Origin: a virus
Strand: one strand, 5' to 3'
IMG/VR virus record: IMGVR_UViG_3300032180_000032
Span: 1 to 27,708 of that record
DNA length: 27,708 bases
Each line of letters opens with the position of its first letter. Within the stretch, counting starts at the first letter, position 1. The translations under genes and the position numbers were made by a program. Positions 4,430 to 26,875 of the stretch are shown piece by piece. The notes under the pieces were generated by a model. That model saw only the letters and a program-made list of their open reading frames with translations, was not told the DNA's origin and did not search any database.

Positions 4430-5253
4430 CTGAACGCTCCCGCAATCCCCACCGACCCGAGATTGTACTTCTGCGCGAAGTACGAAAACAACGTCGTCCG
4501 CTGGGCCAGCGTGGGATTGACCGTGAAGATGATGAGCTCGTACAGATCGATGGCGGCGAAGTTCGAGCCCCCCGCGTTCTGCGCCCCAATCGTCATGACC
4601 CCGGAGAACCCCGTGTTCGCCCCAATCGCGCCCCCGGCATGGGTCGCGGTGAGAGAGTTGAAGTAATCGTTCCCGAGGTTACCTGCGCCCGTGATATCCA
4701 AGCCCACAATGGAGGGCTCCTGCGTCCCCACGACCCCAGACCCCCCGTAGGGAATCAACTGGCTTGTCACCGTCCCTGGAATCAGGTTGGCGGTGTTACC
4801 CACGGTCACGTTCGAGTTCGTCGCCACGAAGCCAATGGGGATGACCGAGGCTCCCGTGGAGTTGAACAGCGTGCTCTGCCCACTCGGCGCAATGGGGAGC
4901 TTCGCCACGAGGAAGATACTACAGGGGGCCGCGGCGACGACGGTGGCGGTCATGAAGCTGGCCGAGCCGTCAAAGGTCACCTTGGGCTGCTGATTCGCCC
5001 CCAGGTCCGTGAACGTGGGCTGATTCGCGGCCGTGTTCTGCACGAACGGGGTGTTGTTGGTCGAGAGATCTGGCCAACTCGAAAGCTTGCCCCCTCGAGC
5101 TGGTGAAGCGGCATCCCCGAACCGCAAGCCAATTGCCCCTGCATCGAGCCAGAGGGCGATGTTCGCAAAGCCCAACGCCACAGGGCCCGCCAAGGCTGAC
5201 ACCCCGGCGTTCCCCCAGCTGGGTCGGGTTTGGACCCCTCCAATCCCGGCCAC
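4426..5253 (-). CDS. Concanavalin A-like lectin/glucanase (LamG-type) virion protein
   Basis: The protein has 275 residues. The start is a GTG at 5253 in a TAGTG junction with the upstream gene. After a short leader it has ANIALWLDAGAIGLRFGD, SSWPDLSTNN, NQPTF and VTFDGSASFMTA. That is the usual order of the jelly-roll ConA-like/LamG domain seen in phage tail and capsid decoration proteins (NxxLWLDA, SWPDLSGN, QPTF, FDGTDDFL). The remainder is Gly/Thr/Asn-rich beta structure ending with an IDLYELIIF segment and a helix (TLFSYFAQKYNLG), also typical of the fold. It is probably exposed on the virion and may bind glycans. The ligand cannot be inferred. Confidence 0.85.
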   Translation of the reverse strand: MAGIGGVQTRPSWGNAGVSALAGPVALGFANIALWLDAGAIGLRFGDAASPARGGKLSSWPDLSTNNTPFVQNTAANQPTFTDLGANQQPKVTFDGSASFMTATVVAAAPCSIFLVAKLPIAPSGQSTLFNSTGASVIPIGFVATNSNVTVGNTANLIPGTVTSQLIPYGGSGVVGTQEPSIVGLDITGAGNLGNDYFNSLTATHAGGAIGANTGFSGVMTIGAQNAGGSNFAAIDLYELIIFTVNPTLAQRTTLFSYFAQKYNLGSVGIAGAFS

Positions 5254-5906
5254 TAGATGAGCGGCGCGGTGATGAGGTACGCCCCCCACAAGGCCGCATC
5301 CATGCCATCCTCAAACGTCGAAGTCACCCCGGCCGCCGTGAGGGACGTGGTGCCGGGGGTGAAGACCGTGGCCGCGGCGAGGCTAATCTTGATCGTCGCC
5401 GCGATGCAGATGTCCGCGGGGAGCTGATTCGCTGGAGCAGGAGTCCAGACGGTGGTCGAGCCCTGATTCGTCGGGCCCTGGACCACCGAGGCGGTTCCCG
5501 AGGCGTTGAGACAGAGCGCATAGTGCATCGTCGCCCCCGAACCCCCCGCCGTCACTGCCGTGCCCGTCAAGGCCCACAGCGGGTCCGTCGCCGTCTTCGA
5601 CTTGAACACCCCGTCGATCGTGAAGGTCGTCGTATTCGCCGTCTTCACGCCCGTGGTATTGGTGGCCTGCGCCGATCCCGCTGCCGTCAAGGCCATGTTC
5701 GCGACGGTCGCGATGTGGGCGTTCAAGCTCTGAATGAGTGCCCCTTCCCCCGTGGCCCGGCCATTCAGGGCTTTGCCATCTTCCACCATCCCCGCCGCTC
5801 CGGTAGGACCGGGGCCCGAGACCACCCCCGCGGCGGCGGTGCCGGAATCGAGCGGAGCGCCCTGGGGAACGACGGGAACGGTCTTGATTGTGGTCGAGAG
5901 TGCCAT
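5253..5906 (-). CDS. Virion structural protein, unknown
   Basis: This 217-residue protein starts at the ATG at 5906, immediately after the stop of the HNH gene. It begins MALSTTIKTVPVVPQGAPLD, contains a Gly/Pro/Ala segment, then a helix (ALIQSLNAHIATVANMAL). A long Thr/Ala/Gly-rich beta region follows (TTTFTIDGVFKSKTATDPLW onward). Composition and position near the capsid gene suggest a decoration or minor capsid protein. Without the HNH insertion it would lie directly downstream of the major capsid gene. The family is not recognised. Confidence 0.8.
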   Translation of the reverse strand: MALSTTIKTVPVVPQGAPLDSGTAAAGVVSGPGPTGAAGMVEDGKALNGRATGEGALIQSLNAHIATVANMALTAAGSAQATNTTGVKTANTTTFTIDGVFKSKTATDPLWALTGTAVTAGGSGATMHYALCLNASGTASVVQGPTNQGSTTVWTPAPANQLPADICIAATIKISLAAATVFTPGTTSLTAAGVTSTFEDGMDAALWGAYLITAPLI

Positions 5907-6512
5907 CTAGGCTCCTTGCCGTGAGGCCAAGAACTCCATCACCGACATTGTGCTCTTGGCCCGATTGCAGGGTCCGCAAGCAGGAACGATGTTGTCCACC
6001 GTGTGGCCTCCACCCTTCTTCAGCGGCACGACGTGATCCATGGTCGGCCTCGGCTCCTCAACTCCACAGTACGCGCAACAGCCTTCGTAGCGGTCCTTCA
6101 ACATCTGCCACTCAGCAGCGGTGATCGGGTGAATCTCGGCGCCCTGCTGAATCCGCCGACGCGCTTTCTGATTCTTCGCATGTTCGGGGTGGGCCTGTTG
6201 ATACAGCCGCTCCCGTTGCCGAACATGTTCCCGATTCCGATCTCGCCAGCTTCGATCAAGGCGGCGCTTGTAGTCTTTATTCTTCGCCCGCCACTCACGC
6301 ATCATTTTCGCGTACTGCTCGCGATGCGTTTCCCGCCACGCCTTGCTCCGCGCCTTTACCGCCTCACGATTCGCGACGTACCACGCTTCAGTTTCTGCCT
6401 TGCGGCACACCTTACAGCGTGGCCGATATCCGTCTGGCGACTGCTGCTGCTTGTGAAACTCCGAGACCGATTTCGTCTCCCCACAGCCTGCACACTGTTT
6501 CGTCTGCTGCAC
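5907..6512 (-). CDS. Freestanding HNH homing-type endonuclease with N-terminal zinc finger
   Basis: The 201-residue protein starts with a GTG at 6512 with GGAG 6 bases upstream; that GGAG lies inside a strong hairpin (separate entry). The N-terminus has a four-cysteine zinc finger (C7, C10, C33, C36; CAGCGETKSVSEFH then CKVCRK). A long basic helical linker follows. The C-terminal HNH domain carries CCAYCG, MDHVVPLKKGG and CGPCNRAKS. This matches the HNH nucleases that nick or cut DNA and spread by homing. It lies between the major capsid gene and the next virion gene and looks inserted there: its base composition is less GC-rich than the flanks. It is unlikely to be a virion component, although an HNH nuclease aiding packaging is an alternative. 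Confidence 0.9.
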   Translation of the reverse strand: MQQTKQCAGCGETKSVSEFHKQQQSPDGYRPRCKVCRKAETEAWYVANREAVKARSKAWRETHREQYAKMMREWRAKNKDYKRRLDRSWRDRNREHVRQRERLYQQAHPEHAKNQKARRRIQQGAEIHPITAAEWQMLKDRYEGCCAYCGVEEPRPTMDHVVPLKKGGGHTVDNIVPACGPCNRAKSTMSVMEFLASRQGA

Positions 6513-6555
6513 GGTGCGCTCCGGTAAGAGATTCCATAATCTACTTTACCGGAGC
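6510..6555 (-). promoter_or_regulatory. Hairpin that sequesters the HNH ribosome-binding site
   Basis: Perfect 10-base inverted arms GCTCCGGTAA (6518-6527) and TTACCGGAGC (6546-6555) enclose a second inverted pair, AGATT (6529-6533) and AATCT (6538-6542), with a 4-base loop. In the minus-strand transcript the 3' arm contains the GGAG that lies 6 bases before the GTG start of the HNH gene, so folding would hide the ribosome-binding site. The structure is read directly from sequence; the regulatory effect is inferred. Confidence 0.75.
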
Positions 6556-6630
6556 TGACTACGCAACCTCTATCCAGAGCGCACCATTATGCCGACTTCA
6601 AGACCGCGTAACTCTCAGCTACGCCGATGT

Positions 6631-7935
6631 CTACGCGACCTTGTCGATACTCGAAACGTCATTGAGATCTTCCACGACCCCATTGGCGTTCCGTTGAATC
6701 CATGCTAGATTCCAATACTTACGCAAATAACCCTCTATCGCATCTTTGTCCACCACGCGGTGGAACACAGCGCCGTCCATGTCGGCCCAGTCCGTGCCCA
6801 CCACATCCGCGAGCTTGATGCTCGAGGTGTTGATGAAGAACAGCCGGGAGTTCGGGCAGTCGTTGTCCCCGATCACCGGGATCGCTCCACCGGCGTGAAT
6901 GACGGCGGCCATGGGCTTGTAGCCACCCTTCAACTGCACGTCCTGGCCATCGAGTCGGCGGAGCGGGAGGAAGATTTCGGAGTACTTGAGCACGATGCCC
7001 GGCCGACACACCAGCAGGTCCGGCGTCATGCGGGCTCTCGCCCGAATCGTCTCGATGGTCTGCATGACGAGCGAATCCGAAATATCGCGGAGCGTCCCGG
7101 AGTTGTTGAGTCGGATGCCCTTCCAGGCTTGACCGACCGTCGAGGGGTTGATCGTCTCGAACGTGCCCGAGTCCAAGGTGCCTACGGAGAGTCCACCCGC
7201 TTCGCCCGCGATGGTGTTGTCCGTCGAGCTCGTCGCCCGCACGACCAGGTCGCCCGTCGTGGTGTTCGGCGTCCCCCCGGAGACCGTGATCGTCTGCGCG
7301 GAATGACTCACCGCCGTGATCGTGAACGGCCCGTTTGCCCGGATCGTGTTCGCCACCCCCGACACGCAGGAGTAGAACTGAATCACGTCGTTGATATACA
7401 GGTGTCGGGTCCCGGTCCCGCCGTTCGACGGAGCGGAGGACACCCCGCCGAACCCGTAATCGCCGCCCGTGAGGGTCTGGGTAGTCGAGTTGGCACCCGC
7501 GGAGACCTGTGAGACCCCAAGCGTGCTCCCGCAGAACATCTGGCGGTTGACTTCGAGATCGTGGGCTTGGAGCCGGTCGGACATCACTTCCGCCAAGGCC
7601 GGCCGGAAGCTGCCCGATTGCTTCTTCGTCACTTCGATCGCCAAGCCATCGAGCGCCATCCGGGTGTAGGTCCGGACAACGTTGATCTGGCCTTGGGAAT
7701 ACTGCCCGACCGCCGCAGCGGGCAGGTTGGCGTTGGCTCCGGCATTGGCCGAGCCGCCACCGATCATCGTCTTGACCCCGAAGATCCAGACGCGACCCGT
7801 GAACTGCGCGTTCTCGAGGCGTCCGAACTGGGCCTTCAGGGGGACTTCGGGGTTCGCCGCCTGGACGTAGATGTTCGTCCAGTAGTCCTTGGCGAGGTTG
7901 TTCAGGTCCGTGAGGGTATTCGGAGTCGCAGCCAC
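6631..7935 (-). CDS. Major capsid protein
   Basis: The 434-residue protein uses a GTG start at 7935 with GGAGG 4 bases upstream. It begins MAATPNTLTDLNNLAKDYWT, then has a stretch (EVTKKQSGSFRPALAEVMSD) and several beta-rich segments. The end is NLAWIQRNANGVVEDLNDVS. Length is close to that of P22-type coat proteins (about 430). The gene follows a scaffold gene, the standard order in podoviruses. An Asn/Thr/Gly-rich insertion around residues 145-230 may be a surface domain. It should form the icosahedral shell through the HK97 fold, which is known for the class rather than visible here. It is probably the most highly translated gene of the window; a small 5-bp hairpin just upstream of the ribosome-binding site (7945-7959) might influence that. 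Confidence 0.85.
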   Translation of the reverse strand: MAATPNTLTDLNNLAKDYWTNIYVQAANPEVPLKAQFGRLENAQFTGRVWIFGVKTMIGGGSANAGANANLPAAAVGQYSQGQINVVRTYTRMALDGLAIEVTKKQSGSFRPALAEVMSDRLQAHDLEVNRQMFCGSTLGVSQVSAGANSTTQTLTGGDYGFGGVSSAPSNGGTGTRHLYINDVIQFYSCVSGVANTIRANGPFTITAVSHSAQTITVSGGTPNTTTGDLVVRATSSTDNTIAGEAGGLSVGTLDSGTFETINPSTVGQAWKGIRLNNSGTLRDISDSLVMQTIETIRARARMTPDLLVCRPGIVLKYSEIFLPLRRLDGQDVQLKGGYKPMAAVIHAGGAIPVIGDNDCPNSRLFFINTSSIKLADVVGTDWADMDGAVFHRVVDKDAIEGYLRKYWNLAWIQRNANGVVEDLNDVSSIDKVA

Positions 7936-8165
7936 AAAGCCTCCACGCCACGAGGGCGTCTCAGAGTCAACAGTTCATACGGAACGGTTGCCTCTCAGCG
8001 GCTCGCGAGGGTGGCCGTGAGGTCGGCTGCGTGCGACAGCGGGGTGGTGGCAGGTTCGCGAGGTGGGCGCCGCAGATCGACGGCTTCCGCAACGCCCTAT
8101 GCCTCAGCGAGGTACTGACTCCCGACGCTCAATGTATGCACGTTTCCCGCGAAACATGCAAGGCC
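7936..8165 (-). other. Non-coding stretch between scaffold and capsid genes
   Basis: About 230 bases lie between the scaffold stop and the capsid GTG with no convincing frame on either strand, unusual in this tightly packed genome. It contains the palindrome at 8137-8160 and, just before the capsid ribosome-binding site, a short ACGCC/GGCGT inverted repeat at 7945-7959. A promoter or RNA-processing site that raises capsid expression would fit, but I see no clear -35/-10 pair. Confidence 0.6.
8137..8160. repeat. Near-perfect palindrome resembling a parS site
   Basis: The arms TGCACGTTTC and GAAACATGCA flank a CCGC centre, with 9 of 10 arm positions paired. The core CGTTTCCCGCGAAACA (8141-8156) matches the bacterial parS consensus TGTTTCACGTGAAACA at 13 of 16 positions. 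It starts 6 bases beyond the scaffold stop. It could equally be an RNA stem-loop at the 3' end of the scaffold message, though no T-run follows on the minus strand. Confidence 0.6.
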
Positions 8166-9302
8166 CTATTCCCGCACCTTGCTCCACGCCGAAATCGCTT
8201 CCTCCTGCGCCCTCCGGTCCGGCGGAATGGGCTTGGGCGGAAGAATCCGTCCTGGCGCCTCCGGCCCTCCCCCTCCCGGAGCAGTATTGGGAGCCTTGCC
8301 CCGCTCAATCGCTCGGGCCGTCTTGGCGTTGTGCGCCTCCGCATCCTTCGCCGCTTTCAAGGCATCAAGCTCCGCCCGGAGACTCGCCAACTGCTGGCCC
8401 CCCGGCCCCTGATTCAAGTATTCCTTCTCGCCCTCATAGACCGACCGGACCGCCTCTTGCCCCCACGGGAGCTGGCCGTTCTGCCAGGCGTAGGCGAGAA
8501 CCACGCGGACCCGCTCCGGATTCACCCCGGGATACTCAGAACTGAGTTGCAGAATCCAGTCCCGGGCTTGCTCCACCACGCTTTGGAGCTCGCGCTCCTC
8601 CGCTTGCGTCGAGAGCGTGGCGAGTTGGGCCTTGCTCTCCCGCGCGCTCAACGCATCGTCATAGAGCTTCCGGAAGGCCGGGTTCGCCTGATACAGCCGC
8701 ATGGTCTCCTGGTACTGTTCCCACTTAGCCGGGTCCTTCTGCGCCTCGATCATCTCCTGCTCGCGCTCTTTGAGCCACGTCTCGCGTTCCTTCGCCGCCG
8801 CAAGCTGAGCATCGGCCTGCGCGATGCGCTGCTCGAGCTGTCGACGGAGTCCTGCCGTCTCCCCCGTCTTCCGCTGGTAGTCCGAGAACAGCATGCCCTC
8901 CCGCAAGACTTGATCGAGCGACTTCTGGGAGACCTGGGTCCCGGTCTTCAGGTTGAACAGGAGATTCTTGGGCACGGGATAGGGCTTCCCGTCGAGCATC
9001 GCTTCCAAGGCGTCCTTGATCGGCTGCGGCGTTTTCACTGCGTCCACGAGCTTCTGGGCATCCGCAGCCGTCAACCCCCCCTTGACCATTGCGGCGACCA
9101 CTTGCTCGGCCGGCGACAGCGTAATCGGTGCAGCGAGCTGTCCCGCAGGAGCGGGCGGTGTCTCCGCGGCCGGCTCCGGACGGGGCGCTTCAGTTCCGGG
9201 AGCAACAGGCTCCTCTACAGGAGCGGGAGGGGTCTCGACCGCAGTTCCACCAGCGACCCACGCGGACGTGTCAGGCGGGTTGTTCAGATTCGGTTCCGGC
9301 AT
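8166..9302 (-). CDS. Capsid scaffold protein
   Basis: The 378-residue protein starts at ATG 9302 with AAGGAG just upstream. The first 60 residues are Pro/Ala/Glu-rich and probably disordered. A small domain (residues about 60-145) contains AEQVVAAMVKGGLTAADAQK and YPVPKNLLFNLKTGTQVSQK. Long charged helices with coiled-coil character follow (LRRQLEQRIAQADAQLAAAK; ERETWLKEREQEMIEAQKDP). The end is Pro/Gly-rich with basic residues. This organisation, together with position directly before the major capsid gene, is typical of phage scaffolding proteins, which direct shell assembly and leave before DNA packaging. No protease signature is visible. The role is inferred from composition and synteny. 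Confidence 0.8.
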   Translation of the reverse strand: MPEPNLNNPPDTSAWVAGGTAVETPPAPVEEPVAPGTEAPRPEPAAETPPAPAGQLAAPITLSPAEQVVAAMVKGGLTAADAQKLVDAVKTPQPIKDALEAMLDGKPYPVPKNLLFNLKTGTQVSQKSLDQVLREGMLFSDYQRKTGETAGLRRQLEQRIAQADAQLAAAKERETWLKEREQEMIEAQKDPAKWEQYQETMRLYQANPAFRKLYDDALSARESKAQLATLSTQAEERELQSVVEQARDWILQLSSEYPGVNPERVRVVLAYAWQNGQLPWGQEAVRSVYEGEKEYLNQGPGGQQLASLRAELDALKAAKDAEAHNAKTARAIERGKAPNTAPGGGGPEAPGRILPPKPIPPDRRAQEEAISAWSKVRE

Positions 9303-26702: not shown

Positions 26703-26839
26703 GCGAGCGCTCGGGCACGAGGGTGCCGCAGGTCCCACGCCTTCCACCGGCACTTGGGCGAGCAGTACCGCAGCGGCCGCCCTTTGGGCTTGGGCGCTCG
26801 GAGTGATCGGCCGCAGACTTCGCACTTGCGCTTTTCCAT
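26699..26839 (-). CDS. Zinc-finger mini-protein, probably leaderless (46 aa)
   Basis: The ATG at 26839 gives 46 residues: [20 protein letters not shown], then [16 protein letters not shown]6xxC9 and C26xxxC30 form a zinc finger, followed by a basic helix, the usual shape of a nucleic-acid-binding mini-protein. No ribosome-binding site is visible. A TATAGT box at 26847-26852 would place the transcript start at or within a base or two of the ATG, so translation may be leaderless. It is the first gene of the left-going transcript, suiting an early regulator. Confidence 0.7.
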
Positions 26840-26854
26840 ATTGCTAACTATACT
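26826..26854 (+). promoter_or_regulatory. Candidate sigma70-type promoter, rightward
   Basis: TTGCGC (26826-26831), 17 bases, then TATACT (26849-26854). A transcript start near 26861 would serve the plus-strand gene at 26895, which has GAGGAG at 26885-26890. This is a reading of boxes by eye only. Confidence 0.5.
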
Positions 26855-26869
26855 CAGGGCGTTGCTAAC
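26841..26869. repeat. Direct repeat TTGCTAAC, 21 bases apart
   Basis: TTGCTAAC occurs at 26841-26848 and 26862-26869. The spacing of 21 bases is two helical turns, as expected for a dimeric operator covering both promoters. Confidence 0.55.
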
Positions 26870-26875
26870 GCGCAA
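26847..26875 (-). promoter_or_regulatory. Candidate sigma70-type promoter, leftward, overlapping
   Basis: On the minus strand TTGCGC (26870-26875), 17 bases, then TATAGT (26847-26852). It is the mirror image of the rightward promoter and shares its -10 bases, so polymerase can use only one at a time. A start near 26840 is at the ATG of the 46-residue protein. Confidence 0.5.

Follow-up and report, generated by a model that had tools for sequence, protein, structure and literature searches.

What does a strong hairpin over the ribosome-binding site of a nuclease gene do when that gene stands directly behind a major capsid gene? The question arises at one locus of the window, by which we mean the whole stretch of DNA that was analysed, a 27.7-kb uncultured virus record (27,708 nt, IMGVR_UViG_3300032180_000032) with a GC-rich genome.

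An HNH gene behind a capsid gene

The HNH endonuclease gene (5907..6512, minus strand) encodes 201 aa and matches Pfam PF01844 (7.7e-11, above cut-off) and phrog_1035 (4.5e-38). It begins with GTG (6512-6510), an N-terminal Cys motif follows directly after the start, and reading of the open frame gives no in-frame start further upstream. The major capsid protein gene (6631..7935, minus strand; phrog_14242 major head protein, 2.8e-34) lies immediately upstream, with a spacer of 118 nt between the two genes on the minus strand. At the other end the TAG of the HNH gene abuts the ATG of the next operon gene (5253..5906, minus strand), whose Shine-Dalgarno (SD) sequence AAGGAG (5917-5912) falls within the 3′ end of the HNH gene. 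Judging from its family and position, the HNH gene probably encodes a free-standing homing endonuclease. Nuclease genes are common near capsid genes (PMC10448857), and T4 segD adjoins the capsid gene 23 (PMC2988022).

Neither the window nor the locus matched any Rfam family at the gathering score (0 families), the only sub-threshold match being a chance microRNA model, and Rfam recognised no known riboswitch, intron or HEARO-type RNA at the locus. A DNA similarity search of the locus against phages gave no match, and a single-sequence search of viral contigs for close relatives of the HNH protein gave none either. When L009, a related locus described below, was added to the query, 67 loci were recovered from the viral contigs, most of them distant. 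The relatives of the window carry capsid proteins 57-96% identical to its own; among 84,980 prokaryote genomes no capsid relatives were found.

Pairing over the Shine-Dalgarno sequence and start codon

The SD core GGAG (6519..6522, minus strand) stands 6 nt (CGCACC) before the GTG, and its probability of being unpaired is 0.000 on long transcripts. The smaller of two hairpins that enclose it (6518..6555, minus strand) consists of ten perfect base pairs, GCTCCGGTAA (6555-6546) with TTACCGGAGC (6527-6518), and an inner stem of five, AGATT/AATCT (6542-6538/6533-6529). An earlier note on this DNA had described an HNH gene next to a capsid gene, a ten-pair stem with an inner five-pair stem on the minus strand and a GGAG six bases before the GTG within it, and we recovered every one of these elements. 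It had also proposed the folding of 6490-6570 as a check, and this segment does fold better than shuffled sequence (-30.9 kcal/mol against -19.9 +/- 2.9; z -3.9; 0/200 shuffles as good). It missed, however, a larger hairpin.

This long hairpin (6511..6587, minus strand) is the minimum free energy structure and becomes the optimum once more upstream bases or the whole intergenic leader are folded. It comprises 31 bp, six of them G-U, in four helices of 14, 7, 7 and 3 bp (6587-6574/6524-6511, 6571-6565/6533-6527, 6563-6557/6541-6535 and 6555-6553/6545-6543, respectively). Its energy is -46.5 kcal/mol, compared with -22.1 +/- 3.1 for 1000 dinucleotide shuffles (z -7.9; best shuffle -34.5). In the 14-bp basal helix ATGGTGCGCTCTGG is paired with CCGGAGCGCACCGT, and the latter includes the GGAG as well as the GT of the start codon, so that the SD and two of the three start-codon bases are buried. 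When both strands of the window were scanned in 80-nt segments, the energy came only seventh, so strong structure alone is not unusual in this genome; what stands out is that the hairpin lies over SD and start, and not its energy alone.

Two segments upstream, 6587-6574 and 6555-6546, are each complementary to the SD segment. When the outer arm was blocked in the folding, the smaller 10+5-bp hairpin formed (-25.4 kcal/mol) and the SD was still shut. The two hairpins may therefore be modelled as a two-layer lock, in which the smaller would serve as a fallback when the outer arm is absent. An exact-match scan of viral contigs for the 3′ arm yielded no homologue of the window hairpin, and the evidence on the hairpin comes from thermodynamic folding of one genome and of one parallel case, locus L010.

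Accessibility of the SD was scored as the probability of being unpaired when 100 nt upstream and 40 nt downstream are folded. On this scale the window and L010 both score 0.00, the lowest values of the 73 HNH genes scored, and 0/138 control gene starts are that low. The T4 positive controls gave 0.00 for gene e and 0.17 for segB, the latter with 0.00 at the start codon; most other T4 genes fall within 0.2-0.9, an exception being e.8 with 0.00. The idea that HNH genes generally hide their SD was rejected, since as a class their SD is no more hidden than that of the controls (p 0.48). The hidden SD thus belongs to the window and L010 genes, not to the family.

We also varied the 5′ end of the RNA. 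For all tested ends from 6760 down to 6555 the SD was unpaired with a probability of at most 0.017, whereas a start at 6550 gave 0.94, starts at 6546-6528 about 0.25 and starts from 6524 onwards at least 0.5. On upstream-initiated transcripts a stable RNA stem thus lies over SD and start, as in RBS-occluding hairpins of the T4 type, and occlusion of the SD is well supported by computation. The same series holds a point against a lock, as a transcript starting in the loop is predicted to be just ~25% open at the SD.

Could the inverted repeat matter only in the DNA, either as a place where the nuclease itself binds or cuts or as a remnant of insertion? Mobile genes can be accompanied by inverted repeats. 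The operators of T4 intron endonucleases resemble their homing sites (PMC2988022). The repeats in the window and L010 differ in sequence, however, and both fold far better in the sense than in the antisense strand (-46.5 vs -29.9 kcal/mol in the window, -41.7 vs -26.5 in L010). The two hairpins together contain 12 wobble pairs and a single A-C opposition (one-sided binomial about 0.002, in a register chosen by sense-strand folding). This asymmetry points, if indirectly, to hairpins that are kept as RNA, and we regard a purely DNA-level palindrome as very unlikely.

An intrinsic terminator behind the capsid gene is harder still to credit. A stem-loop of this strength behind a gene that is presumably highly expressed would suit one, but there is a U-tract on neither side, a terminator scan was negative, and the structural genes further downstream need read-through.

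We consider it probable, if well short of certain, that the hairpin is a cis-acting, RBS-occluding translational lock on a mobile HNH gene, acting on read-through mRNA of the capsid operon. The anatomy of the hairpin, its energetic significance, the predicted occlusion of the SD and the parallel in L010 carry this reading, and from them we infer repression in vivo.

The capsid junction in related phages

The junction was compared in the ten capsid loci L002-L011 and in L019. An HNH gene is present behind the capsid gene in the window, L009 and L010 and absent there from L002-L005, L007, L008, L011 and L019. Occupancy of this one site is optional among the relatives, as for free-standing homing endonucleases.

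L010 has a capsid protein 96% identical to that of the window, and at the same junction it carries an unrelated HNH gene (PF13392). Its leader forms a 29-bp hairpin over its own SD and GTG (-41.7 kcal/mol, z -5.9, 85-nt segment). The L010 hairpin starts at the capsid stop codon, and it is possible that a terminating ribosome opens it, which would couple the nuclease to capsid translation. The 5′ base of the long hairpin in the window lies 44 nt past the capsid stop, beyond the footprint of the terminating ribosome, and such coupling is therefore unlikely there.

In L009 the HNH protein is 46% identical to that of the window and its gene follows directly behind the capsid stop. One hairpin lies within the first HNH codons and another past the gene, and the arrangement of the window is absent; with its HNH start ambiguous, L009 was left out as support. 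L009:5250-5966 and L007:3319-3399 are the filled and the empty version of the same junction. The order differs between loci, the HNH gene preceding the post-capsid hairpin in L009 and the hairpin preceding the HNH gene in the window and L010.

Most of the relatives lacking the HNH gene have a short spacer with a shorter, GC-rich hairpin soon after the capsid stop. Strong post-capsid hairpins occur in L002, L003, L004, L005, L007, L008, L011 and L019, most of them without a U-tract. The hairpin in the window might accordingly be an ordinary post-capsid hairpin of this phage group, serving mRNA stability or partial attenuation, and hide the HNH SD merely through the gene's landing place. In the relatives, however, these hairpins are not centred on the SD of the next gene, which lies outside the main stem, and in the window the usual place is already taken by another hairpin, of 8 bp, GCGTAGCT-GAG-AGTTACGC (6606..6624, minus strand), 6 nt past the capsid stop. 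The hairpins before the HNH genes of the window and L010 are by comparison long and AT-richer, have unrelated sequences, and in each the pairing runs through SD and start. We therefore judge an incidental hiding of the SD unlikely and prefer a lock on the HNH gene.

Several further observations were made at the junction. The SD AAGGAG of the next structural gene lies in the 3′ end of the HNH gene in L010 (L010:5880-5901) as in the window (5907-5917). With this SD supplied by the HNH gene, deletion of the nuclease might harm the operon. L003 and L008, both without the HNH gene here, are 97% identical over 8 kb, with an average difference of 1.75 per 64 nt, but at L003:5245-5309 vs L008:5245-5309 they differ at 14/64 nt. 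This patch covers the last capsid codons and the bases just after them; its coding changes are all synonymous, the next 390 nt are identical, and the one other equally divergent window of this size lies near the contig end. It looks like a recoded or converted stretch at a homing target. In the window's own capsid gene, the last ~30 codons (6631-6740), which adjoin the HNH cassette, have a GC3 of 0.5-0.67 vs ~0.85 elsewhere in the gene.

Possible opening of the hairpin and known systems

If the hairpin acts as a lock, read-through capsid messages would carry both upstream anti-SD arms (6587-6574 and 6555-6546), and SD and start would therefore be enclosed by the 31-bp stem or, where this does not form, by the 10+5-bp hairpin. 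Little nuclease would be made while capsid is made, and the capsid message would presumably continue into the downstream structural genes. The nuclease would be translated only from RNAs with a 5′ end inside the hairpin. The likeliest source of such RNAs would be a weak sigma-70-type promoter with its -10 (6543-6538) near the apex; alternatively, an RNase might cut the stem.

A promoter start within the structure had been proposed in the earlier note by analogy with T4. We found a sigma-70-like candidate (6538..6566, minus strand), TTGCGT (6566-6561) and TAGATT (6543-6538) spaced by 17 nt. Transcription from it would be expected to start near 6530-6532, and the transcripts would lack both 5′ arms. 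Scored with a textbook sigma-70 matrix against shuffles of the same leaders, it is not significant (p 0.11 in the window, 0.20 in L010), and a standard and strict consensus promoter scan of 5200-8200 returned none. No TATAAATA-type late promoter was found in the leader sequence of the window. The best candidate resembles a host sigma-70 site and neither a T4-type late promoter (TATAAATA) nor a middle one, and the internal promoter is a candidate only.

The core TTG-17-TAnnnT occurs in the leaders of both the window HNH gene (TTGCGT...TAGATT) and the L010 HNH gene (TTGTCC...TACTTT), the -10 falling at the apex of the hairpin in each, and a third HNH gene (L117/L118) has TTGCGG...TATACT 11 nt before its ATG. 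In the window and nine relatives the pattern TTGNNN-17-TAnnnT, picked after two of its cases had been seen, occurs 40 times in 676 strand-kb. With the sigma-70 matrix, eight HNH leaders combined gave p 0.0002 against shuffles, mostly due to L116 and L118. Such a core is plausible for the phage of the window, because a divergent, overlapping pair before two open frames at 26826-26875 also carries it (TTGCGC-17-TATACT on the plus strand, TTGCGC-17-TATAGT on the minus strand). At the latter pair the ATG of the minus-strand frame lies 7 nt past its -10, which suggests a leaderless transcript. The HNH genes of L115, L116, L121 and L117/L118 have TATATT or TATACT 6-11 nt before the ATG, as if each had its own promoter for a leaderless mRNA.

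Stems between genes are also cut by RNase III, and sites of this intergenic kind are known from T7 and lambda. Cleavage here would leave a stable 3′ end on the capsid mRNA and free the HNH SD from the 5′ arm, so that processing and not an internal promoter would open the lock. The 31-bp stem with its small internal loops, placed between two genes, would suit the enzyme, and neither the consensus scan nor the matrix comparison with shuffles produced a convincing promoter. We rate this as rather unlikely, though the strongest of the alternatives. It is compatible with a translational lock and bears only on how that lock is opened.

A wider proposal can be put forward tentatively, and we hold it more doubtful than the lock itself. 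Different HNH families behind the same capsid gene, outside the T4 group, may have independently gained hairpins that cover SD and start and carry a host-type promoter core at their apex. The timing known from T4 would then be inverted: the abundant capsid read-through would stay silent, and the nuclease would come, perhaps early, from a sigma-70-type promoter of its own. In the window phage the lock would have two layers. If true, RBS-hiding hairpins would be a convergent way to quiet mobile nuclease genes in essential operons and not a peculiarity of T4-like phages. The window and L010, together with the relatives lacking the HNH gene, would then offer a natural comparison for asking whether such a lock comes in together with its nuclease or evolves after the gene has settled.

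RBS-sequestering hairpins control T4 I-TevI, I-TevII, I-TevIII and segB as well as Aeh1 mobE (PMC2988022, PMC3014915). In the T4 genes, as in the window, a stable stem covers the SD or start on long transcripts only; the promoters of the T4 genes are so positioned that the RNAs made from them are missing the 5′ arm (PMC2988022). The T4-like control suggested in the earlier note stands insofar as SD and start are hidden as fully as in T4 gene e and segB, with a parallel in L010; a T4-type late promoter did not turn up. Unlike the HNH gene of the window, I-TevI, I-TevII and I-TevIII are intron-encoded, and I-TevI, I-TevII and segB are GIY-YIG nucleases. For I-TevI it is early and middle read-through that is blocked and late expression that is allowed, whereas in the window the blocked message would be that of the capsid, presumably late. 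The leader hairpins of T4 gene e and soc likewise occlude the RBS on read-through transcripts (PMC3014915), but these are not nuclease genes and the stem of e is shorter than that of the window. In Aeromonas phage 25 a very stable hairpin also lies beside the start of a homing nuclease gene, seg43, but the RBS is reported just outside the stem (PMC2988022), whereas in the window it is inside.

A close counterpart is Aeh1 mobE, a free-standing HNH homing gene within a phage operon; when transcription starts upstream, a hairpin in the message sequesters its RBS (PMC2988022, PMC3014915). The device is thus not new to this nuclease type, contrary to what the earlier note had supposed. mobE belongs to a T4-like phage, where it lies within a gene for ribonucleotide reductase and has a late promoter, whereas the window gene lies behind a capsid gene in an unrelated phage, with no late promoter recognised and with two alternative anti-SD arms. 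The novelty lies in the setting, for the phage does not belong to the T4 group, two HNH families occupy one site, and the probable lock has two layers.
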